Of a stretch of DNA of 64,000 nucleotides, positions 33,610 to 63,063 are shown piece by piece. Each line of letters begins with the position of its first letter. The first letter of the stretch is position 1. The notes under the pieces are model-generated. The model was not told the origin of the DNA. It worked only from the letters and a program-made list of their open reading frames with translations, and did no database searches. Location of the stretch: assembly GCF_003611465.1 (NCBI RefSeq), contig NZ_RAXV01000001.1:62001-126000 (forward strand), read 5' to 3'. The position numbers and the translations under genes were made by a program. The DNA is from Acinetobacter tianfuensis. Lineage in GTDB: Bacteria > Pseudomonadota > Gammaproteobacteria > Pseudomonadales > Moraxellaceae.

Positions 33610-34528
33610 TCTTTGTCTTTCCTTAGTGTGCAAATTGAACTTACTGCATTTTATTTTGAGTTAAGCGAATACTGGCTAATGCATTTCCAATAGGTTTATT
33701 TGTTACGCCATGTGACAAAAATATCACAAAAAAAATAAGAGTAAATGCTCTATAGGTAAAAAAATTAAAAACTTGCACTTAAAATAGAGTAATAAGCCTA
33801 TTTTTTTCCTAATTGATACAAGTAAGGTTTTGTTATTTATTAATAAAAGTTTTTTATTTTAAAAAAAAAGACGAATACTGGACTTGTGTTCTAATTTTAA
33901 ACAGATGTTTAGCCGCATGGGGGGAAAATGAGCAGTATTTCGTGTCTAGCAGATCGAGGGTTATGATCTATTTGCCTTCTTTTTAGAATATAAAACAGCT
34001 GTATTTACTCTTTTATAATAGGCATTGAGAGGGCTCTGATTTGAATGAAATTTTGCACTGTCCGTGTTAGAGGTTAAGTATTTTTTCTTGATTGATTGCG
34101 CCTAAATGAACCACACAGATTGCGAAATGATATTTAGTTATGGGAACAAAAAAAACAATGGTTTCTTGCTGTAAAATCCCTTTAGAAATAGGCATAACTT
34201 AATGCTCTGGCTTTTTTAGGTGCTGGAGTTATTCTCTGCTTGAATAGGAAAGTTCGATACGATAGCAATGCTTGAAGCTGCTATTATCAATAAAAAATGT
34301 GATTTTAATTGGTCATTTAAATGTGCTGGTGATTGGAGTGGCATGCGGCCATTTTACCGCGTCATACTCGGTACCATCGGCTTTGACAAGTGATGGGATA
34401 AAGAGAGTTTGCTGATTTTAAAAGATTAATTTTTTTTGGTGTAATCATCAAGCAAATTAAGTTGAAAAATAGTTGTTTGATTAATATATTAATTAAATTT
34501 AAGTTTGGGATTCTTAAGAATTCACTCT
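33610..34528. other. Long AT-rich intergenic region
   Basis: About 920 bases without an intact gene. It holds the promoter of the second FadL-type gene near 33620-33850. At 34481-34500 lies a copy of the 20-base motif also found in the hpa promoter. No other structure could be supported. Confidence 0.55.
34481..34500 (+). promoter_or_regulatory. Copy of the hpa-promoter repeat unit
   Basis: The 20 bases TTAATATATTAATTAAATTT are identical to 50603-50622 in the hpaA/hpaG promoter. It stands just upstream of the GMC oxidoreductase remnant and the aldehyde dehydrogenase gene. A regulator site is inferred. Confidence 0.5.
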
Positions 34529-34716
34529 TGTATGAACATGCCGTATGGGAAAAATATTCAGGATTCAGCAGGAGATTTAAGCTTGCCAGTACATGGTATT
34601 TCGCAGCTGAGCGTGATTGATTGTTCTATATTTCCTTTATTCCAAGCGGTAATACTAATGTGCTGGCTATTGCGGCTGCAGAAAACGGAGTGGAGCTGCT
34701 GATTGCAGTAAGGTGA
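34529..34716 (+). pseudogene. Remnant of a GMC oxidoreductase (C-terminal end)
   Basis: Two adjoining frames together encode the C-terminus of a glucose-methanol-choline oxidoreductase. VHGISQLSVIDCSIFP is in the first frame, then IPSGNTNVLAIAAAENGVEL in the frame starting at 34639. The break is between 34634 and 34641 and fits loss of one base. In GMC enzymes these segments form the continuous block (VHG..LRVIDASIMPTIPSGNTN) with the active-site loop. The rest of the ~530-residue enzyme is not seen. It lies directly before an aldehyde dehydrogenase, the usual partner for alcohol oxidation. Not functional. Confidence 0.8.
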
Positions 34717-34821
34717 TATTTTCATCAGGTCATCTTGAAAGTTCATCCTTTAGGATGAGTTCGTTATTTGGATTCATCGCTAAAATGCGTTTAATCCGAC
34801 TAAATAAATAGGGAAATGATA

Positions 34822-36228
34822 ATGAACACAGATTTAATTATTCATGGTCAGGCTATTCAGGGTGAAGCGCCAGTATTTTCAGTGATTAACCCTGCAAATG
34901 AAGCGGTGCTGGCAAAGGTGGCTGGCGCTAGTATGGCACAAGTCAATCAAGCGATTGACTCTGCTGCTGAAGCCTTTAAGTTATGGAAAAATACGACTGA
35001 TGATTCAGTGAATGAACTTTTCTTAAAAATTGCTGCAGATATACGCGCTGCCAAAGATGAAATTGCGAAGCTGATTACTTTAGAACAAGGTAAAACTTTG
35101 CCGATGGCGCAATTTGAAGTTGAGGCAGGCGCGGGCTGGATTGAATATCTAACCAGTTTAGAAATTCCTGTCGAAACAATTGCAGACCCGAGCGGTAAAA
35201 CCATTAAGGTTTATAATCGTCCTTTGGGAGTGGTTGCATCTGTAACGCCATGGAATTGGCCATTTATGATTGCGGTTTGGCATATTTTCCCAGCGTTAAA
35301 AACCAAGAACTGTGTGGTGAATAAACCTTCTGAATATACACCGCTGAGTACAATTAAACTGGTTGAAATTATTAACCGCCATGTGCCGCAAGGCGTATGT
35401 AATATTGTTTTGGGTAAGGGGAATATCGGTCAGGCTTTAACAGAACATCCTGCTGTAAATAAAGTTGCATTTACGGGCTCTACCCGTACAGGGCAAAGCA
35501 TTTTGAGTCACTCTGTGACTTCGCTTAAAAGTGTTGTGCTGGAGTTGGGCGGGAATGATGCTGGGATTGTATTGGAAGATGCTGATATTGATGCAGCGGC
35601 AGAAAAGATTTTTGGCTCAGCTTTTTTAAATGCGGGTCAAACATGCGCTGCGCTTAAGCGTTTGTATGTGCATGAAAGTATTTATGATGTTTTGACTGCC
35701 AAATTAGCTGCTATTGCAGATGCTCAAGTTGTGGGTGATGGCATGGATGCTCAAGTGAGTTTTGGACCTGTGCAAAATAAAATGCAGTATGAAAAAGTCA
35801 AAGCGCTTATTGCGGATGCAGCAGCGCAGGGCGGTCAAATTATGACAGCATCAAAACGGCTGCCTGAATCTGGTTACTATATTGCACCGACGATTATCGC
35901 AAATGTTCAAGAAGGAATTGCTGTGGTGGATGAGGAGCAGTTTGGCCCAGTTTTGCCTGTTTTGAAGTTTAGTACTGTAGATGAAGTCTTACAGCGCAGC
36001 AATGCAACTGAATTTGGTCTAGGCGGTTCAGTGTGGAGCAAAAATTTAGAACGTGCAGAGCAAATTGCCGGCAGAATGGAAACTGGTACAGTTTGGATTA
36101 ATAGTCATTCAGACTTGTCTCCAGCAGCGGCATTTGGCGGCTGGAAAATGTCAGGTTTAGGTTACTCATTTGGTTTGGACGGTTTGTTATTATTTACGCA
36201 TAAACAAGCTGTTCATATTACGCCATAA
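34822..36228 (+). CDS. NAD(P)-dependent aldehyde dehydrogenase
   Basis: A 468-residue ALDH superfamily enzyme oxidising an aldehyde to the acid. The catalytic cysteine Cys275 (NAGQTCAALKR) and general base Glu241 (LELGGNDAG) are present, as is TPWNWPF in the cofactor region. ATG 34822 is preferred over 34816 because AGGGA lies 7 bases before it. The remnant GMC oxidoreductase upstream could once have made its substrate; the amine oxidase TynA 0.8 kb downstream could also supply phenylacetaldehydes. Specificity is not decided by sequence. It ends at a terminator. Confidence 0.9.
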   Translation: MNTDLIIHGQAIQGEAPVFSVINPANEAVLAKVAGASMAQVNQAIDSAAEAFKLWKNTTDDSVNELFLKIAADIRAAKDEIAKLITLEQGKTLPMAQFEVEAGAGWIEYLTSLEIPVETIADPSGKTIKVYNRPLGVVASVTPWNWPFMIAVWHIFPALKTKNCVVNKPSEYTPLSTIKLVEIINRHVPQGVCNIVLGKGNIGQALTEHPAVNKVAFTGSTRTGQSILSHSVTSLKSVVLELGGNDAGIVLEDADIDAAAEKIFGSAFLNAGQTCAALKRLYVHESIYDVLTAKLAAIADAQVVGDGMDAQVSFGPVQNKMQYEKVKALIADAAAQGGQIMTASKRLPESGYYIAPTIIANVQEGIAVVDEEQFGPVLPVLKFSTVDEVLQRSNATEFGLGGSVWSKNLERAEQIAGRMETGTVWINSHSDLSPAAAFGGWKMSGLGYSFGLDGLLLFTHKQAVHITP

Positions 36229-36238
36229 CTATATTTAG

Positions 36239-36264
36239 CCCTTTGCAGGAAGCAAAGGGTTTTT
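36239..36264 (+). terminator. Terminator of the aldehyde dehydrogenase gene
   Basis: 8-bp stem CCCTTTGC/GCAAAGGG with a 5-base loop and T5. Confidence 0.88.
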
Positions 36265-36312
36265 GGGCGCATATATTGCTAATTATATTTCCGAACAGGA
36301 TAGGTGGAAATA

Positions 36313-36978
36313 ATGTTTAATCATCAATTTGTAAATGAGTTCAGTCAAAATTTTATTGAACAGGTCAATCGAGTTTTAAGTTTTGATAGTTATTTGGTGT
36401 ATTCGATAGATAATATAAATCATGCTTATGATTATCAGGGTTTTAATATCTCAAATAAGTCTTTAACAGAATATTTAAACTATAAAGTTGAAAATGATCC
36501 TGTGTCATTTAAAAAATATTTTAATGAAAAAGATCACTGTGTTGAATTACTGAGCCAACATTGCTGTGATGAGGATTATGATGATTTTATGCAGCGCTGG
36601 AAAGTGCAGGATACGGCAGAAATCTTTTTTAGGAAGCGTAATGGTGAGCCAGCATTAGGCTTAAGTATTGTTCGTGAAGGCGATAGCGCGCTTTTTAATG
36701 AGCAAGAAAAAACTGTGCTGGAGGCTTTTTGTGAACTGTCAAAGCGGTATTTTTTCACTCAGACAGACTCGCTTGAAATAACTGATGTATATCGCAGTTT
36801 TCAATTTACTAAAAAAGAAACGCTGGTGCTTGAGCTGATTTTGCAGGGGTTTAGTAATCAAGCCATTTCAGTTCATTTAAATTGCAGTTTAGCAACAGTT
36901 AAAACGCATGTTCAGCATATATTTCAAAAAACCAATCTAAATAGCCGTCAAGAAATTATGATTAAGTTTTTAAAGTGA
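36313..36978 (+). CDS. LuxR-family transcriptional regulator
   Basis: A 221-residue regulator. The C-terminal ~60 residues are a GerE/LuxR helix-turn-helix (FTKKETLVLELILQGFSNQA, then LATVKTHVQHIFQKTNL). The N-terminal ~150 residues have no clear acyl-homoserine lactone or response-receiver signature, so the signal is unknown. The ATG at 36313 has AGGTGGA in front; a GTG at 36304 would overlap that site. It sits between the aldehyde dehydrogenase and the amine oxidase, both on the same strand, and may control one or both. Codon usage is AT-rich. Confidence 0.88.
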   Translation: MFNHQFVNEFSQNFIEQVNRVLSFDSYLVYSIDNINHAYDYQGFNISNKSLTEYLNYKVENDPVSFKKYFNEKDHCVELLSQHCCDEDYDDFMQRWKVQDTAEIFFRKRNGEPALGLSIVREGDSALFNEQEKTVLEAFCELSKRYFFTQTDSLEITDVYRSFQFTKKETLVLELILQGFSNQAISVHLNCSLATVKTHVQHIFQKTNLNSRQEIMIKFLK

Positions 36979-37005
36979 AAAATCATCCTTTGGGTGGATT
37001 TTTTA
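36977..37005 (+). terminator. Terminator of the LuxR-type gene
   Basis: Stem CATCC/GGGTG with one bulge extended by A/T pairs and followed by T6; overlaps the stop codon region. Confidence 0.7.
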
Positions 37006-37062
37006 TCGATTGAATTACATTAATTTACAGCCATAGCCGTGTTTATTATGGATTTTGGAACA

Positions 37063-39366
37063 ATGAAGTTTAATCAAATTACACAATCATTAAAAAAATT
37101 GACAGCATTAAATATTGCTGTTGCAGCATTTGCTTTAGGCGCACATCAAAATGTATTGGCACACGGTCAAGCTGCAGAGATGGTGCCTTTATACCAAAAC
37201 ATGAGTGATTTTGGCGCTGACGTTAAAAAAGATGACTTCAGTAATGTCTATACCATTTCAAAAGGTTCATTGGTTGTTCGCGCTAAGGCGAATTCAGATA
37301 CGGTATTGGTTAATGGCAAGCCTTTGAAAGTCAGTGTGCCGCTGGTTGAAAAAAATGGTAAAGCTATTGTTAGTAAAGAGTTTGCTGCTGAAATTTTTCA
37401 ATCAGGTTTAGATCAAACCTTTAAAGTTGAATCTGTTGCGCACCCATTAAATGGTTTAACGTCTCAAGAAATTTCTCAGACTTTCGATGTGATCAGCAAG
37501 TCTGAATATGCTTATCCAAATATGCGTTTTTCAGAAATTAAATTGAAAGATCCTGAGAAAGAGCAAGTATGGGATGCTTTTATTCAGCATAAAGATTTTA
37601 AAGGTGACCGTGTTGCTGAGTTTACTTTATTAAAAGGCAAGCAAGTGATTGAAGGTTTGGTTGATCTTCAAACATCTAAAGTGACGCAGTGGAAAGTTTT
37701 AGACAATACGCACGGTATGGTGCTGTATGACGACATGGTTGCTGTTCAGGAAATCGTGACGAAAGACAAAAACTACATTAAAGCCTTAGCTAAACGCGGT
37801 GTAAAAGATGTCACTAAAGTTGTAACTACACCTTTAACAGTGGGTTATTTTGGCGGTAAAGACGGTTTAGACCGTGAGCTGAATGTTTTAAAAGTTGTAT
37901 CTTATTTAGATACAGGTGACGGCAATTATTGGGCACATCCAATTGAAAACTTGGTTGCAGTAGTTGATTTGGACAATAAGAAAATTGTGAAACTAGAGGA
38001 AGGCGCGATTATTCCAGTTCCGATGTCGCCAAATTCAATTGTTAATAAAAATGATAAGTCTCAATTTAAGCCATTAAATGTCGTTGAACCTGAAGGCAAA
38101 AACTTTTCGATTACAGGGCAAACAATTCATTGGGGACCATGGTGTTTCCATGTGGGTTTAGACTCACGTGTCGGTCTAAAAATTTCAACAGCCACTTATA
38201 AGGATAAGGGTGAAAAGCGTAAGGTCATGTATGAAGGGAATTTAGGCGGTATGGTTGTACCGTATGGTGACCCGGATATGGGCTGGTACTTCAAGTCGTA
38301 TTTAGACTCGGGTGAATACGGTATGGGTACATTGACCTCTTCAATTGAAAAAGGCATTGATGCGCCAGATAATGCTGTTTTGCTTGATGCTGTGATCGCA
38401 GACTACACGGGGCAGCCGCGTGTGATTCCAAATGCGATTGCTATTTTTGAGCGTTATGCAGGTCCTGAATTTAAGCATCAAGAGATGAATCAGCCGAATA
38501 TCAGCTCTGAACGCCGTGAATTGGTTGTACGCTGGATTAGTACGGTAGGCAACTATGACTATATATTTGACTGGGTATTTAATAACAACGGCATTATCGG
38601 CATTAATGCCGGCGCAACAGGCATCGAAGCGGTTAAAGGTGTGAAAGCCCGCACCATGCGTGATGCAACAGCGAAAGAAGATACACGTTTTGGCACTTTA
38701 ATTGACCATAATATTGTGGGTACAACGCATCAGCATATTTATAACTTTCGTTTAGATATGGATGTAGATGGCGGTAATAACAGCTTTATGGAAGTCGACC
38801 CAGTGATTGCTAAAAATACCCGCGGCGGTCCGCGCAGCAGCGCAATGGAAGTGAAAGAGCGTATTGTCAGCACAGAGCAGGAAGCCGCGCAGAAGTTTGA
38901 TCCATCGACAATTCGTTTGATCTCGAACATGAATAAAGACAACCGTATGGGGAATCCAGTGTCCTACCAAATGATTCCATTTGCAGGCGGTACGCACCCA
39001 ATTGCTAAAGGCGCAAACTTTTCTCCAGATGAATGGCTATTTAAGCGTTTGAACTTTATGGACAAGCAAATTTGGGTGACCAAGCGTGATGTAAATGAGT
39101 TATTCCCTGAGGGCAAATATTCAAACCGTTCTGTAAAAGACACTGGTTTAGGTGAATTTGTTGCAAACAATGACAATATTGAAAACAAAGATCTTGTGGT
39201 ATGGATGACGACTGGTACGACTCACGTGGCTCGAGCAGAAGAATGGCCAATTATGCCGACAGAGTGGGTTTATACCATGTTGAAACCATGGAACTTCTTT
39301 GACAGCACGCCGACATTGAATAGCGGCGATGATCAAAAAGTAAAAAAGGACCAGCATAAGCATTAA
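37063..39366 (+). CDS. tynA: Copper-containing primary amine oxidase (tyramine/phenethylamine oxidase)
   Basis: A 767-residue copper/topaquinone amine oxidase very similar to E. coli TynA (MaoA). It converts primary aromatic amines to aldehyde, ammonia and hydrogen peroxide in the periplasm. The TPQ precursor tyrosine is Tyr498 in VGNYDYIFDW. Copper ligands are His556 and His558 (TTHQHIYNF) and His721 (TTHVARAEEW). YLDSGEYGMG contains the catalytic Asp. The ATG at 37063, 4 bases after GGA, gives a normal signal peptide (MKFNQITQSLKKLTALNIAV, cleavage before HGQ); a GTG at 37039 is less likely. It would make 4-hydroxyphenylacetaldehyde from tyramine, feeding the hpa pathway. Confidence 0.96.
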   Translation: MKFNQITQSLKKLTALNIAVAAFALGAHQNVLAHGQAAEMVPLYQNMSDFGADVKKDDFSNVYTISKGSLVVRAKANSDTVLVNGKPLKVSVPLVEKNGKAIVSKEFAAEIFQSGLDQTFKVESVAHPLNGLTSQEISQTFDVISKSEYAYPNMRFSEIKLKDPEKEQVWDAFIQHKDFKGDRVAEFTLLKGKQVIEGLVDLQTSKVTQWKVLDNTHGMVLYDDMVAVQEIVTKDKNYIKALAKRGVKDVTKVVTTPLTVGYFGGKDGLDRELNVLKVVSYLDTGDGNYWAHPIENLVAVVDLDNKKIVKLEEGAIIPVPMSPNSIVNKNDKSQFKPLNVVEPEGKNFSITGQTIHWGPWCFHVGLDSRVGLKISTATYKDKGEKRKVMYEGNLGGMVVPYGDPDMGWYFKSYLDSGEYGMGTLTSSIEKGIDAPDNAVLLDAVIADYTGQPRVIPNAIAIFERYAGPEFKHQEMNQPNISSERRELVVRWISTVGNYDYIFDWVFNNNGIIGINAGATGIEAVKGVKARTMRDATAKEDTRFGTLIDHNIVGTTHQHIYNFRLDMDVDGGNNSFMEVDPVIAKNTRGGPRSSAMEVKERIVSTEQEAAQKFDPSTIRLISNMNKDNRMGNPVSYQMIPFAGGTHPIAKGANFSPDEWLFKRLNFMDKQIWVTKRDVNELFPEGKYSNRSVKDTGLGEFVANNDNIENKDLVVWMTTGTTHVARAEEWPIMPTEWVYTMLKPWNFFDSTPTLNSGDDQKVKKDQHKH

Positions 39367-39406: not shown

Positions 39407-39861
39407 ATATTCAGAATAACAGCATGAAAAAAATATTGTGTACAGTGAGTATGGTGATTTTAATGGACACAGTTTTTCTTCTTTTTATAAAAACTAGGCG
39501 GGCTGTTTAATAATAGTATATGGATTTATCAAGTCTCTTTGCAAATTTCAATTAAAGTAAACTTTTATTTATGGTTGTTGATATATGAGTTTGATGTCAT
39601 TAAAAAGATCAGGGAAATTTAGATAGAAATGGATATTTTAAACAACAGTGATTGATTTAAAAGTGCAGGCAGTAAGGTGTGCATGTGGATTTTAATTTGT
39701 TTTTGCTGTTGTTTTTAAGTTGGGGTTTTGGGTTTTAAAATCAATATATTGGTTTTTTTGTTTGTGTTTTTAATTTGGTTTTTAAATAATTGTTTGCTTA
39801 TTTGTTTTTTATTAATTAACATGTTAAATATAATAATATGGAAATGACAGGGAGTTGTCAC
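39407..39861. other. T/G-rich leader upstream of the AlgE-like porin gene
   Basis: About 450 bases without a supported gene. From about 39686 to 39815 the plus strand is almost free of C, with TGGGGTTTTGGGTTTT-like tracts. It ends in a perfect palindrome TTAACATGTTAA (39816-39827). The porin promoter should lie here. Confidence 0.6.
39813..39827 (-). promoter_or_regulatory. Variant of the hpa-promoter repeat unit, inverted
   Basis: On the minus strand the 15 bases TTAACATGTTAATTA match TTAATATGTTAATTA of the hpa promoter (50583-50597) at 14 of 15 positions. It lies 35-49 bases upstream of the porin start. Confidence 0.4.
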
Positions 39862-41271
39862 ATGAAAGTGAAAAGGATAATACTTGCTGTAAGTTTTTTT
39901 ATGGGTGTGCAAGGTGTTTATGCGCAGGAAAATGTCCCAAGTGATTTAGGTGGTCCTAGGTTTATTGCGTGGAATAATGATTATCAGTATTTGGGTAATT
40001 CTGATAATAGAACAGGATATTGGGCTGAAGGTTTAAATTACATTCCATTAAGTCAGAACCCTGAAACGTATTTAACAGTAGGAGGTGAAGGCCGCTGGAT
40101 GTATGAGTATTTAAATCATGCCTCGGCAAATTTTGAACCGAATGACCGGAATGAATCTGTTGCGCAGCGGCTGAGATTGTTTGGTGATTTACATTTAAAT
40201 AAAAATTTTCGATTATTTTTAGAACTTGGTGATAACTGGGCATATGATGCCGAAGTGCCTACACCAGCGAATTATGATGCAGTTGATATTCAACAGGCAT
40301 TTTTTGATTATCAATTTAAGCTAAATGAAAATATGCAGGTTGGTTTTAGACCAGGGCGTTTTGTTATGCCTTTAGGCAGCAAAATACTTGTGTCCACACG
40401 TGATGGCAGTAACTTGCAATATAATTATGATGGTTTAAGGGCTTGGCTAAATTATCAAGATAATTTAAAAGTTGATGTTTTTAATGTTAAGCCAGTTAAA
40501 TTTAAGCGCGGATCATTTGATGATCAAGCTGATAATAGCAGAGAATTCAAAGGTATTTATTTAACCGCTAGTATGTCTGATGAAAATATAGACAAAGCAA
40601 ATTTTGATTTATATTTTTTTGATATGAACCATGATCGAAAAATATTTACGGACCAGTTTGGAAAACAGAATAGGAATAGCATAGGTGCACGGCTATATGG
40701 TCAGAAAAATAATATTGACTATGATTTTGAATATGTTCATCAATTTGGAGATTTTGGTGAAAAGGATATTCAAGCTTATGCTGTATTTTCAAAATTTGGT
40801 TATCAAATTGATCAAAAATTTAATCCATATATCGCTTTGCAGAGTATGCTTTTTAGCGGTGATAATGATTTAAATGATCAAAAATTAAAAACATTTGAGT
40901 CGCCTTTTTCAAGAACAGCATTATTTAGCGGTGCAGCTGAATTTGGCCTGATGAATGCTTTATTTATAAAGCCAAGTTTAAGTTTAAATCTGCTGCCAAA
41001 AGTTAATTTAACTGCATCTTATGCTGTTTTACAAAAGCAGACTAAAAATGATTCGATTTATCATGCCCCTTCAGGTGTGTCATGGAATGATCATTATCAA
41101 ACCAGTTCTAAAGATATTGCCAATATCACAGAGCTTGAATTGAATTATGATTACAGCCGTAATTTAAATTTCAATGTTTTATTTTCTAATGTTGATGCAG
41201 GTCAGGCACTCAAAGAGATGGGCGGGAAAACCAATAACTATATTAGCGTTACAACACAATTTAAATTTTAA
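39862..41271 (+). CDS. AlgE-like (alginate-export family) outer membrane porin
   Basis: A 469-residue outer-membrane protein with a cleavable signal (MKVKRIILAVSFFMGVQGVY, cleavage near YAQEN) and a C-terminal Phe (VTTQFKF). Alternating amphipathic strands and the segment RLRLFGDLHLNKNFRLFLEL resemble the alginate-export (AlgE) porin family, whose members can be general anion or aromatic porins. ATG 39862 follows GGGAG; an upstream ATG at 39838 is not preferred. It is followed after 27 bases by the arylsulfatase gene, so it is probably the uptake channel for the sulfated substrate. Confidence 0.85.
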   Translation: MKVKRIILAVSFFMGVQGVYAQENVPSDLGGPRFIAWNNDYQYLGNSDNRTGYWAEGLNYIPLSQNPETYLTVGGEGRWMYEYLNHASANFEPNDRNESVAQRLRLFGDLHLNKNFRLFLELGDNWAYDAEVPTPANYDAVDIQQAFFDYQFKLNENMQVGFRPGRFVMPLGSKILVSTRDGSNLQYNYDGLRAWLNYQDNLKVDVFNVKPVKFKRGSFDDQADNSREFKGIYLTASMSDENIDKANFDLYFFDMNHDRKIFTDQFGKQNRNSIGARLYGQKNNIDYDFEYVHQFGDFGEKDIQAYAVFSKFGYQIDQKFNPYIALQSMLFSGDNDLNDQKLKTFESPFSRTALFSGAAEFGLMNALFIKPSLSLNLLPKVNLTASYAVLQKQTKNDSIYHAPSGVSWNDHYQTSSKDIANITELELNYDYSRNLNFNVLFSNVDAGQALKEMGGKTNNYISVTTQFKF

Positions 41272-41298: not shown

Positions 41299-42963
41299 AT
41301 GAAAATCAAAAAATATGGAACATTATTGCTTTCGATGTGGATGTGTTCATCTTTTGCAAATGCAAAGCAGCCGAATGTATTGCTTATTGTTGCTGACGAT
41401 GTAGGTTTTTCTGATATTCAGCCTTTTGGCAGTGAAATTCCAACGCCAAACTTACAGCGTTTGGCCAAACAAGGGGCAACATTATCTAATTTTTATTCTG
41501 GTCCAACGTGTTCAGTGACGCGTTCAATGCTGTTGACTGGTCAAGACAATCATCAGGTTGGCATGGGCACAATGGCAGAATTGTTGCAGCCCGAGCATGA
41601 AGGTCATGAAGGCTATCAAGGTGTGCTCACAAATAAGGCGTCTACACTTGCTGAAATTTTAAAGCAAAGCGGTTATCAAACCTTTATGAGCGGTAAATGG
41701 CATTTGGGTAAAAAGCCTGATTTGGTGCCTTCTGCACGCGGTTTTGAAAAATCTTTTGTTTTATTGCAAGGCGGTGCAGGGCATTTTGATGAAACACCGC
41801 TGCTGTTGAACTATGATCCAATTTATCTGGATGATGGCAAAAAAGTGAAATTGCCAGAAAATTTTTATTCGACAGATTATTATACTGACCGCATGTTAGG
41901 TTATTTAAAAAATTCTCGCGATCAGAATAAGCCATTCTTTGCCTATTTAGCATTAACTTCGGCACACTGGCCTTTACAGGCGCCAGATCAATATATTGCC
42001 AAATATAAAGATGCTTATAAACAAGGATACGATGCTGTTCGTGAACAGCGCCTGACGACATTGAAGCAATTGGGTGTGGTCGCTCCAAATACGGCTGTGA
42101 ATAATCCTTTTGCAGATAAATTGACACCATGGCATGAATTAACTCCAGAACAGCAAGCTCGTGAAAGCAAAGCAATGCAAGTTTATGCAGGCATGCTCGA
42201 CAATATGGATGTCAATATTGGCCGAGTCATGGATTATTTACAAAGTACAGGTGAGCTGGATGACACCATCGTATTATTTATCTCTGATAATGGACCAGAA
42301 GCAGCCGATATTGAAGGTTTGGACGAAAATGATGGTTTTATGGATTGGGTAAATTCGGCCTTTGATAACTCCCTTGAAAATATGGGGCGCAAGGGTTCAT
42401 ATATTGCGTTAGGACCACAGTGGGCTCAAGTCTCTGCAACACCGTATCCGCATGCTAAAGGTTTCCTTTCTGATGGCGGAATTCATGTACCTGCTTTAAT
42501 GAGTTATCCGAAAAGAATTCCTGCCGGCACAATAAATAATAGCAATTTGCATGTTATGGATTTTGTACCTACCGTGCTTGATTATGCAGGAATTAAACAA
42601 GATAAAAAGGCGGCTTTAAAATTTGAAGGGGTGTCATTTTCTTCTGTTTTTAATGGTAAAAAATTGCAGGATCGTGCGCTCAATTGGGAGTTTAACAACC
42701 GTAAAGCTGTGAGGGATAAAGACTGGTTGTTATTAGAGCAGGCAGCGCCTTATGGTAATGCCAAATGGCAATTGTTTGACCGAGCATCAGATCCCTCCAT
42801 GAAAGCAGATGTGGCTGAACAGCACCCGAAACAAGTCAAAAAAATGATTAAACAGTGGCAGCAATATGCCAAACATGTAGATGTCGTGAAAGCGCCTGCC
42901 CGTTATAACTATGCACAAAAGCTTTGCTTTTATGGCAAATGCATAGGTGAGGCTGAAAAATAA
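41299..42963 (+). CDS. atsA: Exported type I arylsulfatase
   Basis: A 554-residue sulfatase similar to Pseudomonas AtsA, hydrolysing aryl sulfate esters. It has a signal peptide (MKIKKYGTLLLSMWMCSSFA, cleavage near NAKQP), so it acts outside the cytoplasm. Metal ligands VADDVG (Asp33-Asp34) and FISDNGPE are visible. The formylglycine cysteine is Cys71 in PTCSVTRSMLLTG; the usual C-x-(P/A)-x-R motif has Val in place of Pro/Ala. It is followed after 113 bases by a formylglycine-generating enzyme gene on the same strand, which supports maturation of Cys71. Substrate unknown; a sulfated phenol such as tyramine sulfate is a guess from context. Confidence 0.92.
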   Translation: MKIKKYGTLLLSMWMCSSFANAKQPNVLLIVADDVGFSDIQPFGSEIPTPNLQRLAKQGATLSNFYSGPTCSVTRSMLLTGQDNHQVGMGTMAELLQPEHEGHEGYQGVLTNKASTLAEILKQSGYQTFMSGKWHLGKKPDLVPSARGFEKSFVLLQGGAGHFDETPLLLNYDPIYLDDGKKVKLPENFYSTDYYTDRMLGYLKNSRDQNKPFFAYLALTSAHWPLQAPDQYIAKYKDAYKQGYDAVREQRLTTLKQLGVVAPNTAVNNPFADKLTPWHELTPEQQARESKAMQVYAGMLDNMDVNIGRVMDYLQSTGELDDTIVLFISDNGPEAADIEGLDENDGFMDWVNSAFDNSLENMGRKGSYIALGPQWAQVSATPYPHAKGFLSDGGIHVPALMSYPKRIPAGTINNSNLHVMDFVPTVLDYAGIKQDKKAALKFEGVSFSSVFNGKKLQDRALNWEFNNRKAVRDKDWLLLEQAAPYGNAKWQLFDRASDPSMKADVAEQHPKQVKKMIKQWQQYAKHVDVVKAPARYNYAQKLCFYGKCIGEAEK

Positions 42964-43079
42964 ACCAGTTCAGATATTCTAAAAGTACAACGTTTTCAAG
43001 CATTAGCTTTTAGGGGGAAATTGAGTTAAGCCTAAAAGCTGACGGCATTGTAAGATCATCAAATTGAGAGTGAAAGTTG

Positions 43080-47406: not shown

Positions 47407-48186
47407 ATGTCTGAAGAAAAAATACAAGGCGGCGTGCAGTCCTTAGAAGTTGGCTTAACTGTACTTGATGCTCTGATTGCGCACCAAATGCCCATGATGC
47501 TGAAAGAACTGGCTGAAAAATTGTCGATGCACCCTGCAAAAGTCCATCGTTATGTTGTGAGCTTAGTGCGTATGAGCTATGCAAAACAGCTTGATGATGG
47601 GCGTTATGCGCTTGGTGATCAGGCATGGCGTCTGGGATTGAGCTGTATTCAGCGAACAGATGCTATACAGGCTGCTCAGCCGATGATTTATGAATTGCAC
47701 CGAAGTATTGAATGCGGGTTGCAAATTAGTAAATGGTCATCACAAGGACCGCTGATTGTGCAATGGATTGAACCGAATCAACCGGTTTCTGTTATTACAC
47801 GAGTGGGTTCGATTATGCCGCTGCTGAATTCTGCTACAGGCCGTGCATATGCTGCATTTATGAATGAAAGCATTATTCGGCCATTGCTGGAGCAGGAGTG
47901 GGCACTGAAACAAATGCAAGGACAGCCGGTTTATCCAGCCAATTGGACTGAGTTTCAGGAAATGAAACAAAGCATTGTTGAAAAAGGCGCTGCAACTGTT
48001 TCGGGCGATATGCTGGCAGGAGTGAACTCGTTCTGTGTACCAATTTTCAATGCGCATGGCGAGATTGAATTTTGTATAGCTGCATTGGGAAGTGAATGGT
48101 GCCTGCCTATAGACTTTGAAAATGAAAAGGTCAAAGCTTTAAAAGAAACGGCTCAAGCTTTGACTGCGTATATCACTCAGAGATAA
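47407..48186 (+). CDS. IclR-family regulator, probable homogentisate pathway regulator
   Basis: A 259-residue IclR-type protein: winged helix-turn-helix in residues 10-75 (QSLEVGLTVLDALIAHQMPM, then LAEKLSMHPAKVHRYVVSLV) and a C-terminal effector-binding domain (RVGSIMPLLNSATGRAYAAF, then ATVSGDMLAGVNSFCVPIFN). It is divergent from fahA-maiA-VOC. In pseudomonads an IclR protein (HmgR) represses the homogentisate genes and responds to homogentisate, so the same role is likely. A shared palindrome at hpd suggests it also controls that operon; this is inferred. Confidence 0.9.
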   Translation: MSEEKIQGGVQSLEVGLTVLDALIAHQMPMMLKELAEKLSMHPAKVHRYVVSLVRMSYAKQLDDGRYALGDQAWRLGLSCIQRTDAIQAAQPMIYELHRSIECGLQISKWSSQGPLIVQWIEPNQPVSVITRVGSIMPLLNSATGRAYAAFMNESIIRPLLEQEWALKQMQGQPVYPANWTEFQEMKQSIVEKGAATVSGDMLAGVNSFCVPIFNAHGEIEFCIAALGSEWCLPIDFENEKVKALKETAQALTAYITQR

Positions 48187-48434: not shown

Positions 48435-49619
48435 TTAGTCGTGTTTCATACCATGAGTAAGCATTAAGCTTATTAAGCATAAACAAGCGCCTAAACAGAC
48501 CACAAGGTTCATGGTTGCAGGATGATTGTTAGTGAAAAATATACTGACTAATCCGCTCATGCATGCCCCAATTGCAAATTGGGTTGAAACCGCAAGACCA
48601 GATGCAGTGCCTGCTTGCTGCGGTAAAAGTTTTAATAGATTGGCCAATGAGTTGGCGCCAATAGAACCAGTGACACCGACAAATACAGCAAGGCCAGCAA
48701 TCAGCCATACAGGTGATTCAAGCTGTAGCACGGTAATCACGGCTAAATATAGGCCTGCTAGGCAAGAAATGGCAGCCATAATCTTCAGCAGCTGATAAGC
48801 CGAATAATATTTTAATGCACGGCTATTTATACTGGTAAAAATAATGATGCTGAAAATGTTGAAGCCAAACAGCAGGGCATATTGCTGCGGGCTGAAGCCA
48901 TAATAATGAATAAATACAAAGGATGAGGCTGTGATATAGGCAAACATGCCGCCAAATGAAAAGCTGTTGCATAAAATTAAGCCAATTGCGAAACGGTTTT
49001 TCAGTACGGCCGTATAGTTGGTCAACAGGCTGGCTGGATTGGGTGCGGGCAGCCGCGCTTCAATACTGAATTTGGTCCACATTAAACAAATGACAGAGTA
49101 CACCAGCAGGAAAATAAAAATGCCATGCCAGCTCCATTGGGTTGCAATCCACGCGCCAAATACTGGGGCAATAAGAGTCGCAATCATGGTGATAATATGC
49201 ATAAGCGATAAAATTTTAGGAATTTCATCATTGTTGAAAAGATCACGCACCAAGGCGCGGGATAATACAGAAGCGCTTGCGCCGCCAATGGCCTGTAATA
49301 GCCTAAACCATTGCAGCTGCTCGATTTGCTGTGCAAAAGCGCAGCCTAAGGTCGCAAAAATATAAATCAGCATACCCATTATTAACAGCTTTTTACGGCC
49401 ATAACGGTCAGACAGCGGGCCATAGATCAGCATGCCAATACTAAAGCCGATCAAAAAAATAGTGATGGTCTTTTGCACTTGGCTAACATGGGTATTTAAA
49501 TCCGAAGCAATGAATGGGAGGCTTGGAAGATACATATCAATAGAAAGCGGCCCAAAAGCCACTAATGCGCCCAATAAAACAATCAGTGACTTGGGCGGGG
49601 TGCGGCGGGAATCAATCAT
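48435..49619 (-). CDS. Bcr/CflA-family MFS efflux transporter
   Basis: A 394-residue major facilitator with 12 predicted helices. The N-terminal ALVAFGPLSIDMYLPSLPFI and the loop GPLSDRYGRKKLL are hallmarks of the Bcr/CflA drug-resistance branch. Its ATG overlaps the last 8 bases of hpaA, so the two are co-transcribed; this suggests a role linked to 4-hydroxyphenylacetate, for example export of toxic intermediates, though drug efflux is the family norm. No clear terminator follows. Confidence 0.9.
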   Translation of the reverse strand: MIDSRRTPPKSLIVLLGALVAFGPLSIDMYLPSLPFIASDLNTHVSQVQKTITIFLIGFSIGMLIYGPLSDRYGRKKLLIMGMLIYIFATLGCAFAQQIEQLQWFRLLQAIGGASASVLSRALVRDLFNNDEIPKILSLMHIITMIATLIAPVFGAWIATQWSWHGIFIFLLVYSVICLMWTKFSIEARLPAPNPASLLTNYTAVLKNRFAIGLILCNSFSFGGMFAYITASSFVFIHYYGFSPQQYALLFGFNIFSIIIFTSINSRALKYYSAYQLLKIMAAISCLAGLYLAVITVLQLESPVWLIAGLAVFVGVTGSIGANSLANLLKLLPQQAGTASGLAVSTQFAIGACMSGLVSIFFTNNHPATMNLVVCLGACLCLISLMLTHGMKHD

Positions 49620-50553
49620 AATTTAAGGTTCGGGCTGTGTTGAGGTGCTGGTTGCGGTAATCTGAGGGGCGCAGGCCTGCATGACGGGTAAAGAAACGGC
49701 TGAAATAGGCAGGATCTTTAAAACCCAATTGATAGCACACCGTATTGATTGTGGCATCGGAGAAAATAAGCTGGCGTTTTGCTTCTTGCATTTGGCGGTC
49801 AAAGATCAATTTTTTGGAAGAAATGTCAGCCACGCGGCGGCAAATGTCATTTAAACGCGTTTCAGTGACGTTCAGCTGTTTGGCATATTCACTGAGCGGC
49901 CAATGTTCCAGAAAGTGATTTTCAATCAGTTCGTTAAATGCGCGGAAAGTTGCAAGATCCCCGCTGCAGCTGTTAATACGCGGCGCAGTTACATCACCCA
50001 AGCGGATCATTTGAATAAAAATCAAAGAGACCAGATTACGCAGAGCAGGCTGACGGTTGGCTTTATTGGTTTGGAACTCTTTTTGTAAATCAATAAAGTA
50101 ACGTTCGAGCTGAATCAGGTCGTCGGCATTTTCTTTTTTAAGGCTGTCGATTGAGATACACAAGGGCACGATATTTTGCACCTTTAAGTCTACTTGCAGT
50201 AAAGGCCAGACTAAATTTTGCTGAACCGTGAGCACATGGCCTTCACACATTGGATCGGTAATAAATGAGTGCGCTACGGAAGGCGGAGTGAGAAAACAGA
50301 CTGGCGCATTGCAGACGTATTTCACATCATCTAAAAAGATGCGGATAGACCCTTTGGTGAAATAGTGAATTTGAAAAAAGCCGTCATGACGGTGGGCTGG
50401 CATGTTCACGCCAAAGAAATCCGCCAGCTTCCCTTGCGAGTCGTAATGAATTTCTGAATTCATGTAGCGCTGGTCATAAACCTCGCCTAATTTGATGTTG
50501 GGGATTTGCATCTGATTCATACCTTCGAGTCCATGAAAAGTATAATTTTTCAA
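49612..50553 (-). CDS. hpaA: AraC-family activator of 4-hydroxyphenylacetate catabolism
   Basis: A protein of up to 313 residues with an N-terminal cupin-like effector domain (HRHDGFFQIHYFTKGSIRIF) and a C-terminal AraC/XylS double helix-turn-helix (LSEYAKQLNVTETRLNDICR and INTVCYQLGFKDPAYFSRFF). This layout matches HpaA, which binds 4-hydroxyphenylacetate and activates hpa genes. It is divergent from hpaG1. Alternative starts at 50520 or 50511 would shorten it by 11 or 14 residues; GAAGG lies just before the former. A tandem repeat in the 117-base divergent promoter is its likely binding site. Confidence 0.9.
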   Translation of the reverse strand: MKNYTFHGLEGMNQMQIPNIKLGEVYDQRYMNSEIHYDSQGKLADFFGVNMPAHRHDGFFQIHYFTKGSIRIFLDDVKYVCNAPVCFLTPPSVAHSFITDPMCEGHVLTVQQNLVWPLLQVDLKVQNIVPLCISIDSLKKENADDLIQLERYFIDLQKEFQTNKANRQPALRNLVSLIFIQMIRLGDVTAPRINSCSGDLATFRAFNELIENHFLEHWPLSEYAKQLNVTETRLNDICRRVADISSKKLIFDRQMQEAKRQLIFSDATINTVCYQLGFKDPAYFSRFFTRHAGLRPSDYRNQHLNTARTLNYD

Positions 50554-50580
50554 CTTTACCTGTAAAAAGGACTTGAAAAA

Positions 50581-50622
50581 AGTTAATATGTTAATTATAA
50601 AGTTAATATATTAATTAAATTT
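50581..50622 (+). promoter_or_regulatory. Tandem 20-bp direct repeat in the hpaA/hpaG1 promoter
   Basis: 50581-50600 (AGTTAATATGTTAATTATAA) and 50601-50620 (AGTTAATATATTAATTAAAT) are adjacent direct repeats, identical at 17 of 20 positions. A 20-bp spacing (two helix turns) in direct orientation is typical of AraC-family binding sites, and hpaA is divergent here. Copies of the unit occur at 34481, 39813 (inverted) and 62867. Confidence 0.7.
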
Positions 50623-50670
50623 CAAAATGTCTAGTCAAATATTGACCAGATCATCAGTAGAGAGTCTCAA

Positions 50671-51330
50671 ATGAGTGAGTTAAAAAGCATCAGCATGGAT
50701 GGTAATATTTTTGGTATCACATTGAATTACAAATGCTTATATGAAAAACTTCAGGCGCAGTTCAATGAGAAGCCTTATGTGAATGAGCCGAAAAAGCCGG
50801 TTCTATTTATTAAAACACCAAATACGCGAAATGCATCTGGAAATATTGTCATTAAGAAAAAAGGCGAGATTTTGCAAGCAGGCCCTGCGCTTGGCATCGT
50901 GATCGGCAAAAGTACCAGCCGTGTTGCGGAAAATGATGCTTTAGCACATGTAGCGGGTTTTGTGACTGTCAATGAACTGAGTCTTCCGGAAGACAGCTAC
51001 TACCGTCCAGCCATTAAAGCCAAATGCCAAGATGGTTTCTGTGTACTGGGTACACCAGTCGCTGCAGATGCAGTGACAGATCTGAATAATTTGACGCTGC
51101 GTGTTTATGTCAATGGTGAGTTAAAGCAAGAAGGCAACACAGCCAATTGGATTCGTACACCTGCGCAAATTATTGAAGAAATTTCTGAATATATGCCGCT
51201 GAATGAAGGCGACATTATTTTAACTGGCACACCGTTTGGCCGTGTGGACTTAAATGCAGGTGATGAAGTTCGTGTGGAAATCGATCAGCTCGGCTCAGTG
51301 ACAAATACAATTCAGGAAGAAGGGAACTAA
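50671..51330 (+). CDS. hpaG1: 4-hydroxyphenylacetate degradation isomerase/decarboxylase, N-terminal-type subunit
   Basis: A 219-residue protein corresponding to the N-terminal half of fused E. coli HpaG (HpcE), a fumarylacetoacetase-fold protein that decarboxylates 5-oxopent-3-ene-1,2,5-tricarboxylate. LPEDSYYRPAIKAKCQDGFC and ILTGTPFGRVDLNAGDEV match closely. In E. coli both halves are one protein; here they are separate genes three bases apart. It is the first gene of the hpa operon. Confidence 0.92.
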   Translation: MSELKSISMDGNIFGITLNYKCLYEKLQAQFNEKPYVNEPKKPVLFIKTPNTRNASGNIVIKKKGEILQAGPALGIVIGKSTSRVAENDALAHVAGFVTVNELSLPEDSYYRPAIKAKCQDGFCVLGTPVAADAVTDLNNLTLRVYVNGELKQEGNTANWIRTPAQIIEEISEYMPLNEGDIILTGTPFGRVDLNAGDEVRVEIDQLGSVTNTIQEEGN

Positions 51331-58016: not shown

Positions 58017-58498
58017 GTATATAAGAATCAGTATTTAAATATGTATTGAAAAGATATGGCTGCGCGGGTGTAGTTGAGCTATTTTCTGTTGAGCGAAGGC
58101 TGAAAATGTGTGCTCAATGTATTTGCCGCAACGCTGTACAGCAGCCTTTAGATCATGCTGAGAATAAATGCATTTTCTATGCAATTTCCAGTGTTTTGTA
58201 CCAGTATTTATTTTATATAAAGAGTAAATTTCGTCTAAATAGTTAATTTTAATTTTTTGGGAGCGTTGTCACGGCTTTACTTTTTCTCTTAAATTCAATT
58301 AGCTGTATGATTGTTTTTTTATAATTAAGACTAAAGTATGAAGTTAGTTAATAAGTTAAATAGTTGATATGCAATGGATTTTACGCCATGCTTGGAAAGT
58401 GCAAATTAAACTGAATTTAGTACCTTTCTTGCACATTAAAGATGTTTTAAAAATAAACGATGGATAAGGTTATCCACGGATGACGTAAGGATTCGAAG
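58017..58498. other. Intergenic region after the hpa operon
   Basis: About 480 AT-rich bases. A 66-codon frame at 58046-58246 has no ribosome site or recognised features. The promoter of the 58-residue gene should lie in the right part. Confidence 0.5.
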
Positions 58499-58813: not shown

Positions 58814-60211
58814 ATGTCTACAGCACCTTATGCTGCCCAAGATAGAAATAAAATGTCTGCCAATGACCGTAAAGTTGCTTTTGCAACAATTATCGGTACA
58901 ACCGTAGAGTGGTATGATTTTTTTATTTACGCTGCTGCAGCAGGTCTTGTTTTTAAAACATTATTCTTCTCACCGGCAGGCTCAACTTTAGGCACAATGC
59001 TGGCATTTGCGACAGTGGGTTTGAGCTTTTTATTCCGTCCTTTGGGCGCATTTCTTGCAGGTTACTTTGGTGACATTTATGGCCGACGTGCTGTTTTGGT
59101 TGCAACTCTTGTGGTGATGGGGCTGTCAACAGCTTTAATTGGATTATTGCCTACCTATGAAACAATTGGTATTTGGGCGCCTATTTTACTTTTGCTTCTG
59201 CGTATTTTACAGGGCTTGTCTGCAGGCGGCGAATGGGGCGGGGCGGTATTGATGGCGGTGGAACATGCACCTGTGCATAAGCGCGGCCGTTTTGGCTCAT
59301 TCCCTCAAATTGGTGTGCCGTTAGGATTATTGCTGGCTTCGGGCATGTTTGCGCTGATGAGCGGTGTGATTGCTCCAGGAGATGCATTTATGGAGTGGGG
59401 ATGGCGCATTCCTTTTCTATTCAGTATCGTCCTGCTGTTTTTGGGGCATTGGCTGCGTAAGTCTGTAGAGGAAAGTCCTGTATTTGAAGAAATTAAAGAA
59501 CGTAAATCTGCATCTAAAACACCAATTAGAGACTTATTTAAAAATCACGCGGCTTTAGTTATCGTGGCTGCTTTGGTCTTTGCTGGAAATAGCGCGATCG
59601 GTTATATGACCACAGGCGGTTTTATTCAAAATTACACGACAAATCCTGAAGGGCCTCTGGCATTGCCGCGTACTCCAATTTTAATCAGCGTGACCGTTTC
59701 TGCTGCAATTTGGCTGTTGTTTACATGGTTCTCGGGCGGTTTATCAGACAAAATTGGCCGCCGTCAGACTTACATTTATGGTTTTATCGTGCAATTATTC
59801 GGTGTTCTTGCATTATTTCCATTGGTCAATATTGGCGAAATTTGGTCGGTATCTTTAGGTCTATGTTTCTTGGCTGTCGGTATTGGAATGACTTATGGCG
59901 CTCAGTCAGCATTTTATTCAGAACTGTTCCCTGCATCGATCCGTTTCTCTGGGGTGTCTATTTCTTATGCTTTAGGCGCTATTTTGGGCGGTGCATTTTC
60001 GCCATTAATTGCCTCATGGCTGGTCAGCTCTACAGGTTCAACTGACTCTGTAGCATACTATTTGGCAGGAATGACGATTGTAGGCCTAGTTGCAGCGATA
60101 TTGCTGAAAGACCGTTCCGGTATTCCTCTTGGCCCAGATCATGAGGCATTGCAAAATGAGTCTGCCTTTACATTCAGCAAAGAAAAAAGCAAGCATGTTT
60201 ATAGTGAATAA
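58814..60211 (+). CDS. MHS-family MFS transporter, probable aromatic acid uptake
   Basis: A 465-residue metabolite:H+ symporter (MFS) with 12 predicted helices. ATIIGTTVEWYDFFIYAAAA is the signature N-terminus of the MHS branch, with GDIYGRRAVL in the first conserved loop and SAGGEWGGAVLMAVEHAP in helix 4-5. Members carry shikimate, proline, citrate or aromatic acids. Placement between the hpa operon and the 4-hydroxyphenylacetate hydroxylase genes suggests uptake of 4-hydroxyphenylacetate, by inference. GAGGGAC precedes the ATG; a terminator follows. Confidence 0.88.
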   Translation: MSTAPYAAQDRNKMSANDRKVAFATIIGTTVEWYDFFIYAAAAGLVFKTLFFSPAGSTLGTMLAFATVGLSFLFRPLGAFLAGYFGDIYGRRAVLVATLVVMGLSTALIGLLPTYETIGIWAPILLLLLRILQGLSAGGEWGGAVLMAVEHAPVHKRGRFGSFPQIGVPLGLLLASGMFALMSGVIAPGDAFMEWGWRIPFLFSIVLLFLGHWLRKSVEESPVFEEIKERKSASKTPIRDLFKNHAALVIVAALVFAGNSAIGYMTTGGFIQNYTTNPEGPLALPRTPILISVTVSAAIWLLFTWFSGGLSDKIGRRQTYIYGFIVQLFGVLALFPLVNIGEIWSVSLGLCFLAVGIGMTYGAQSAFYSELFPASIRFSGVSISYALGAILGGAFSPLIASWLVSSTGSTDSVAYYLAGMTIVGLVAAILLKDRSGIPLGPDHEALQNESAFTFSKEKSKHVYSE

Positions 60212-60265: not shown

Positions 60266-60544
60266 ATGGCGTTTATTCGTACGGCAGACAATAGGATGCC
60301 GCTGAGCGCAGATGTTTGGGTTTTATATCTAAGCTTTTAAATAAAAATTACACAATTAATTCATCTGAAAATATTTGCTTTTTAGGTAATTTGAAAAGTG
60401 CAATTTTAAGTCGGGAAAATACATTAAGCTTTGCCAAATAATACTGAATAATGGATTCAATACAGCAGAATGGCCTGCTATCTAGGGAATTGTGCCGATG
60501 AGTGCCTTTATGCTGAAAGGCACTATAAACGAAGGATATATAGA
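60266..60544. other. Leader region of the 4-HPA hydroxylase operon
   Basis: About 280 AT-rich bases expected to hold the promoter. No copy of the hpa repeat unit was found here. The frame upstream of 60545 is open but is not expected to be translated. Confidence 0.5.
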
Positions 60545-62777
<2,233 letters not shown>

Positions 62778-62866: not shown

Positions 62867-62883
62867 TTAATATATTAATTAAA
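62867..62883 (+). promoter_or_regulatory. Copy of the hpa-promoter repeat unit
   Basis: The 17 bases TTAATATATTAATTAAA are identical to the first 17 of the motifs at 34481 and 50603. It stands directly upstream of the FAD dehydrogenase remnant. Confidence 0.5.
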
Positions 62884-62901
62884 AACCCTTGAGTAGCGTT
62901 T

Positions 62902-63063
62902 ATGTACCAAAGCTGCAGGAGTGGACGTGGAAAAAATATCGAATGTGATGTGCTGGTGGTAGATTTAGGCGCATCAGGCATGGCATCCGCAATAACTGCT
63001 AAATTATTGGATTTAAATGTGGCGGTTATTTGGCAGTGTAAGCCTGTTTCAATTGATTGCTGA
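62902..63063 (+). pseudogene. Remnant of an FAD-binding dehydrogenase (N-terminal end)
   Basis: A 53-codon frame contains CDVLVVDLGASGMASAITAK followed by LLDLNVAVIW, the Rossmann FAD-binding start of the fumarate reductase/3-ketosteroid dehydrogenase type (normally VVGSGASGMAAAITAK..G..V.VIEK). The first glycine of GxGxxG is replaced (Asp-Leu-Gly), the expected EK after VI is Trp-Gln, and the frame stops after 20 more bases. Nothing of the remaining ~500 residues follows. A regulator gene takes its place. Not functional. Confidence 0.7.

Follow-up and report, generated by a model that had tools for sequence, protein, structure and literature searches.

Predicted HpaR operators at the hpaG1 promoter of Acinetobacter tianfuensis and before further catabolic and transport genes

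The window analysed in this study (the whole stretch of 64,000 nucleotides, C1:62001-126000 of the 3.46 Mb genome of Acinetobacter tianfuensis) contains the divergently oriented genes hpaA and hpaG1, and a tandem repeat at 50581-50622 lies between them. The features of this region are as follows.

49612..50553 (-), hpaA, AraC-type activator gene (TIGR02297, 360 bits against a cut-off of 275)
50573..50601 (+), likely hpaG1 promoter, read by eye: TTGAAA at 50573-50578, a 17-bp spacer and TATAAA at 50596-50601
50583..50594 (+), predicted hpaG1 operator O1, TTAATATGTTAA, a perfect match to the dyad pattern, in the spacer of the likely promoter
50603..50614 (+), predicted hpaG1 operator O2, TTAATATATTAA, just 3' of the likely -10 and over the expected start
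50671..51330 (+), hpaG1, first gene of the meta-cleavage operon (TIGR02305, 252 bits against a cut-off of 229)

The initial annotation had described two adjacent direct units here, and these are present at 50581-50620 with 17 of 20 positions identical in the register given. Sequence comparison also confirmed that the 20-mer TTAATATATTAATTAAATTT at 50603 occurs again at 34481-34500, that 17 bases recur at 62867-62883, and that an inverted match of 14 of 15 bases lies at 39813-39827. The view that such matches are unlikely by chance was borne out as well: when up to 2 mismatches were allowed, the 16-mer TTAATATATTAATTAA had 7 matches in the window, where 0.25 would be expected, and none of 100 dinucleotide shuffles reached 7, although two of the seven matches are the overlapping reverse reading of one place. 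A shorter 12-mer with 1 mismatch was less striking (6 in the window against 1.64 expected; 1 of 100 shuffles reached 6). The repeat at 50581-50620 is confirmed as real and above chance.

The core shared by all copies is a 12-bp dyad, TTAAYATRTTAA. Both 20-bp units are themselves dyads: O2 is fully palindromic, as are the copies at 34481, 39816, and 62867, and O1 has a single central pair that does not match. Since the arms of O1 are inverted TTAA and O2 is palindromic throughout, the asymmetric direct half-sites of an AraC-type site were not found here. In the genome-wide count, TTAAYATRTTAATTAW was located at 7 places of the 3.46-Mb genome (8 strand-hits), with 0 for the reversed control. The objection that the motif might be abundant in the genome did not hold, because the core TTAAYATRTTAA occurs at only 13 places (reversed control, 0): eight in C1:96481-128866, two on C32, and one each on C23, C29, and C62. 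Three of the copies on C1 lie 0.7 to 2.9 kb past the window end (C1:126656, 127121, and 128855). The location of 8 of the 13 copies inside 32.4 kb has a binomial P of 7e-14, for an interval chosen after the fact. Markov models of the window predict 2.3-3.4 occurrences of TTAAYATRTTAA per genome, and the copies on C23, C29, and C62, which occur within a reading frame or after unrelated genes, are consistent with a background of about 1.7-3.4 per genome. Ten of the 13 copies precede catabolic, transport, or hpaR genes, or remnants of such genes. Unpaired dyads account for 6 of the 8 copies on C1 and for both on C32.

One of the copies past the window end, at C1:127121, is located 31 nt before the ATG of a repressor gene.

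C1:127152-127577, hpaR, MarR-family repressor gene, 141 aa, 1.2 kb past the window end (TIGR02337, 161.5 bits against a cut-off of 121.2)

HpaR of this genome matches the solved HpaR 7el2/7el3 (E 3e-54), structures that we take to be those of Acinetobacter baumannii HpaR. The stretch ACILKPSLTGI, which was taken for the DNA-reading helix, is identical between the two proteins. The dyads at 50583-50594 and 50603-50614, 57-88 nt 5' of the hpaG1 ATG, have the TTAA-N4-TTAA form of HpaR operators, lie at the hpaG promoter, and share their genome with HpaR. According to PMC7180172, Yersinia pseudotuberculosis lacks an HpaA homologue, and the sites footprinted by HpaR at its hpaG1 contain TTAA-XXXX-TTAA; they are called similar to those of E. 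coli W, where HpaR represses the meta operon and HpaA activates hpaBC. The arrangement here resembles that described for HpaR of Y. pseudotuberculosis and E. coli W, with TTAA-N4-TTAA at the hpaG promoter, one copy over the promoter core, and hpaR in the genome. On the other hand, the two Yersinia sites are far apart (-189 and -8), whereas the dyads here are 20 bp apart around the likely -10, and extra copies are predicted here at sulfatase, amine oxidase, porin, and transporter genes. PMC7180172 also describes an action of Y. pseudotuberculosis HpaR at a T6SS4 promoter site without TTAA arms, so counting the motif may miss part of the regulon. PMC12718150, citing Permsirivisarn et al. 2022, places HpaR binding in Acinetobacter baumannii upstream of both hpaA and the meta-cleavage operon, which corresponds to 50581-50622 here; the passage that says so mentions no target beyond the hpa cluster. 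ChIP in Salmonella located the fatty-acid regulator FabR in the gap between hpaR and hpaG (PMC4804515), and its motif, ACAnnTGTnnnnT, is different from the dyad.

To follow the dyad beyond the genus, we used 79 HpaR loci picked by protein similarity only (best 80 of 554). hpaG1 was matched in 59 of them, and 57, mostly from Pseudomonas, were retained after two weak matches (34% and 31% identity) were dropped. A dyad was present within 150 nt upstream of hpaG1 in 57/57 of these loci among the best 80 of 554, and in 48 of them the dyads were paired at a spacing of 20 bp (32) or 21 bp (16). TATAA was found in 47 of the 48 linkers between paired dyads of these loci chosen by protein, and by eye in 15 of the 16 rows of the genus alignment. 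Nine of the 57 loci failed the test for head-to-head hpaA (<500 nt), yet all nine retain the dyad at hpaG1; hpaR stands between hpaG1 and hpaA in six, no hpaA was found in the locus of one, and two may have a longer gap. A dyad lies within 160 nt upstream of the hpaR start in 44 of the 78 loci having enough upstream sequence. The 69 non-Acinetobacter loci together carry 167 dyads, where first-order Markov sequences predict 1.55. In dyads of other genera, the arms are constant and the four central bases variable.

A consensus scanner applied to 50400-50800 listed three other promoter-like sites, two of which overlap the dyads, one per strand. The TTGAAA/TATAAA promoter is unlisted because the scanner demands T at the last -10 position, and since the scanner lists other sites, the position given for the hpaG1 transcription start is approximate. 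GAAAAGTATA at 50535 was considered as an HpaA box and rejected because of its overlap with TATACT, on the minus strand the likely -10 of hpaA.

The two regulators could be separated in E. coli HS. Here TTAACATATTAA is located 43 nt before hpaG, inside the 271-nt hpaR-hpaG gap, whereas the 250-nt hpaA-hpaB gap contains no dyad, even with 3 mismatches. One more TTAA-N4-TTAA occurs in the 10.3 kb examined, inside tsr.

In 175 Acinetobacter genomes, HpaR passed the cut-off in 22 and HpaA in 16, all of which were among the 22; therefore, HpaA and HpaR are inseparable within the genus. The mean dyad count was 7.3 in the 22 HpaR-positive genomes and 1.7 in the 153 HpaR-negative genomes (P 9e-11). However, the reversed control pattern was also commoner in the HpaR-positive genomes (3.2 vs 2.0, P 0.013), so part of the dyad excess reflects composition. 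Among HpaR-positive genomes, the six without HpaA had 3.0 dyads on average against 8.9 in those with HpaA. Alone, this contrast would favour HpaA, but hpaG1 was found in 0/6 of the genomes lacking HpaA, indicating that the pathway itself is missing there. Of the 16 hpaA loci, 15 carry a perfect dyad at -102 to -112 relative to the start of the HpaA match, and hpaG1 adjoins hpaA in 14. In G065, where hpaA and hpaG1 are ~22 kb apart, the 20-bp dyad pair is at hpaG1 and a 1-mismatch relic is at hpaA. In G150, on the other hand, a perfect dyad precedes hpaA with hpaG1 absent within 1.5 kb, so the dyad is not always tied to hpaG1; HpaR control of hpaA would explain this dyad, and HpaA autoregulation would do so equally. 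A perfect dyad was found within 160 nt in 7 of the 22 hpaR promoters of the genus.

A different element stands before hpaB.

60393..60423 (+), candidate HpaA site, direct repeat GAAAAGTGCA-N11-GGAAAATACA, 152 nt 5' of hpaB, which starts at 60545

Upstream of hpaB in relatives, GAAAAGTRCA occurs twice, 21 bp start to start. From these upstream regions we drew the pattern GRAAARTRCM-N11-GRAAARTRCM, into which the 21-bp spacing is built. The pattern was found once each in 14 of the 175 genus genomes (reversed control, 1 hit in 175), all 14 copies being 119-154 nt before hpaB. It was present in 14/16 HpaA-positive genomes (G029 and G103 miss it) against 0/159 HpaA-negative ones (P 7e-19), and in 7 of the 8 HpaA-positive genomes outside the pattern-drawing set (P 1e-11), P values that are too small because related genomes are not independent. 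No HpaR-type dyad lies within 400 nt of hpaB in the window; of 14 genus genomes, 12 likewise lack one there and 2 have one. E. coli HS has GAAAAGTACC-N11-CAAAAGTGTC 122 nt before hpaB, found among spacings 10-39. XylS-type sites consist of two direct units 21 bp apart. The repeat at 60393-60423 likewise has two direct units at this distance upstream of an activated gene and co-occurs with HpaA, whereas 50581-50622 comprises two dyads, not two asymmetric half-sites. Judging from these patterns, 60393-60423 is a better HpaA candidate than 50581-50622, and HpaA most likely acts there. E. coli-type HpaB was not found among the 79 HpaR loci, so in Pseudomonas no link between the repeat and hpaB could be made. 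When the 69 non-Acinetobacter loci were scanned for repeat pairs, spacing 21 yielded 9 pairs and spacing 26 yielded 7, and every other spacing between 12 and 33 yielded 0-3, which is weak support at best for the HpaA repeat.

The initial annotation was right in proposing a shared regulatory motif for hpaG1, the aldehyde dehydrogenase gene, and the porin-sulfatase genes, but its assignment of the motif to HpaA is most probably wrong. If the units at 50581-50622 were tandem HpaA half-sites and the other copies further HpaA targets, this would account for the two direct copies next to hpaA, spaced 20 bp, for the higher dyad number of HpaA-positive genomes, which are a subset of the HpaR-positive ones, and for the dyad before hpaA in G150 with hpaG1 not nearby. 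Such an assignment is very unlikely, because an AraC-type site does not fit units that are dyads, four of them (O2, 34481, 39816, and 62867) perfectly palindromic, nor copies that are mostly single, one of them before hpaR. TTAA-N4-TTAA was footprinted for HpaR in an organism lacking HpaA, Y. pseudotuberculosis, and the dyad stays at hpaG1 where hpaA sits elsewhere. Furthermore, at hpaB, where a different direct repeat tracks HpaA, the dyad is missing from E. coli HS and from most genus genomes. HpaA was rejected as the binder of the dyads on the basis of the palindromic units, the HpaR footprints in Yersinia, E. coli HS, and the hpaB repeat.

It is even less likely that the dyads are bound by another local regulator, namely the LuxR-type protein encoded at 36304-36978 or an IclR-type protein encoded at 47407, 63082, or C1:125851. 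Genes of both types do lie in the island, and the LuxR-type gene is between two dyad copies; however, E. coli HS keeps the hpaG dyad with no such gene among the annotated neighbours, and TTAA-N4-TTAA is the HpaR site in the published work. That AT-rich promoter DNA was repeated by chance, with no specific protein, is the least probable of these explanations and close to negligible. The arms consist entirely of A and T, some copies are background, and the reversed control is raised too in HpaR-positive genomes, but 7 matches in the window against 0.25 expected and 167 dyads against 1.55 expected in GC-rich relatives led us to reject a chance origin. We consider, with a probability of about 0.92, that the repeat at 50581-50622 is an operator pair for HpaR, that the single copies before hpaR and the other catabolic and transport genes are further HpaR sites, and that HpaA acts elsewhere. 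We infer HpaR binding in this species, the geometry that brackets the -10, and control of the extra targets from the sequences compared here.

In the proposed mechanism, when neither 4-hydroxyphenylacetate nor its first product is present, one HpaR dimer would occupy each TTAAYATRTTAA dyad. At the hpaG1 promoter, two dimers 20 bp apart, i.e., two helical turns, would sit on one face of the DNA and flank the -10, and RNA polymerase would then be unable to open the promoter; the inducer would release HpaR. Two MarR dimers two turns apart would explain the tandem look without an AraC protein. The single copies would place uptake, desulfation, amine oxidation, and ring cleavage under one repressor, HpaR. 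For Serratia HpaR, calorimetry saw no 4-HPA binding (PMC10364317), which makes the inducer step of the model less certain.

Beyond hpaG1, the following dyads of the window stand before genes or gene remnants.

34481..34492 (+), predicted HpaR operator, perfect dyad, 324 bp 5' of aldehyde dehydrogenase, LuxR-type, and amine oxidase genes (34816-39366)
39816..39827 (+), predicted HpaR operator, perfect dyad, about 35 bp 5' of the porin-sulfatase-FGE operon
58348..58359 (+), degenerate dyad TTAATAAGTTAA, one mismatch, upstream of an MHS-type transporter gene (58814-60211)
62867..62878 (+), predicted HpaR operator, perfect dyad, before a decayed FAD-dependent dehydrogenase gene (operator and remnant together, 62867-63060)

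The predicted operator before the aldehyde dehydrogenase (AldDH) gene (34816-36228) is the weakest of the targets: of 20 AldDH loci in 17 genomes, 4 (among them the present one) have a dyad in the 500 nt upstream. At two of the four dyad-bearing loci, G092 and G119, a LuxR-type gene (33% identity) follows the AldDH gene as it does here. LuxR-type homologues are also found behind AldDH in G088 and G113 (52-53%). The LuxR-type regulator gene of the window (36304-36978) lies between the aldehyde dehydrogenase and amine oxidase genes, and GerE was the only regulatory domain found in its product. Between the 34481 operator and the aldehyde dehydrogenase gene, 34530-34810 is a decayed reading frame, by eye presumably like the C-terminus of a GMC-type oxidoreductase.

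The porin gene (39862-41271) has orthologues of 64-100% identity, and the dyad stands before it in 3/3 genomes (this genome, G088, and G113); among 8 distant porin homologues (27-28%), it was absent before both that were checked. In G088, hpaR, MFS, AldDH, LuxR-type, and amine oxidase genes, the dyad, and the porin and sulfatase genes follow in this order within 13 kb beside hpa genes. G113 has AldDH, LuxR-type, and amine oxidase genes, the dyad, a truncated porin gene, and a retained FGE gene, and the sulfatase gene is missing there; the sulfatase is thus present in 2/3 genomes having the dyad-porin arrangement. In the sulfatase encoded at 41299-42963, the active-site stretch reads CSVTR, where the usual sulfatase signature has P or A in place of V, and a gene for a formylglycine-type enzyme follows at 43077.

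On C32, genes for an OprD porin and an MHS-type transporter have one dyad each. For the OprD porin, a dyad (<=1 mismatch, 600 nt) was found at 5/10 HpaR-positive loci against 0/20 HpaR-negative loci (the 30 best of 74 matching genomes), and the gene is directly beside hpaR in G113, G076, G120, and G088. An MFS gene is located behind hpaR in 12 of the 22 genus hpaR loci, and in 10 of these 12 it is preceded by a dyad 1622-1721 nt from the HpaR match start. In 5 of 6 other loci with the same MHS-type transporter as that encoded at 58814-60211 (74-83% identity), the 180 nt upstream contain one or more perfect dyads; we do not claim the one-mismatch dyad at 58348 as a working operator. Also on C32, near the OprD and MHS genes, L010:12946-16170 is a 1074-aa frame with Cas3 type I-F, Cas2-like, and helicase domains.

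Two copies on C1 precede gene remnants. At the place of the decayed gene behind 62867, L122 (Acinetobacter sp. ANC 3813) has an intact FAD-binding gene preceded by a near-dyad, TTAATATCTTAA. The predicted operator at C1:126656, also a perfect one, precedes a remnant (operator and remnant together, L009:6656-7100) whose match, judged by eye, is the OprD-family porin of L122, in which intact FAD-binding, MFS, and OprD genes stand. The C32 OprD protein gave no match to the C1:126656 remnant; the intact L122 gene at that place belongs to the OprD family.

Control of the hpaA/hpaG region by HpaR is already known, A. baumannii included (PMC12718150). What is new is the predicted reach of HpaR, suggested by the position of the dyads, to the amine oxidase and aldehyde dehydrogenase genes, the porin-sulfatase operon, the unlinked porin and transporter genes, and the MFS gene. 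In the open-licence literature searched, which leaves Galan 2003 and Permsirivisarn 2022 outside it, no HpaR targets are described among sulfatase, amine oxidase, or unlinked porin genes; likewise, no HpaA repeat is described there, with Prieto and Garcia 1997 also outside it.

Tentatively, one HPA-sensing repressor might govern a full scavenging route for sulfated aromatic amines or acids, with HpaA separately gating the first hydroxylation. In this route, the porin and sulfatase would free the phenol, the amine oxidase and aldehyde dehydrogenase would convert it to 4-hydroxyphenylacetate, and the meta pathway would consume the product; tyramine sulfate or 4-sulfooxyphenylacetate are possible substrates. 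HpaA would gate the first hydroxylation via the 21-bp direct repeat common to Acinetobacter and E. coli. We regard the route as rather doubtful, and its probability was lowered by the missing sulfatase in one of the three genomes. The analysis corrects the regulator of the motif and provides a testable HpaR regulon for Acinetobacter, in which a sulfatase of unknown substrate would be linked to aromatic-acid catabolism. The specific candidate HpaA site may be useful for HPA-responsive promoters and for work on hpaBC expression.
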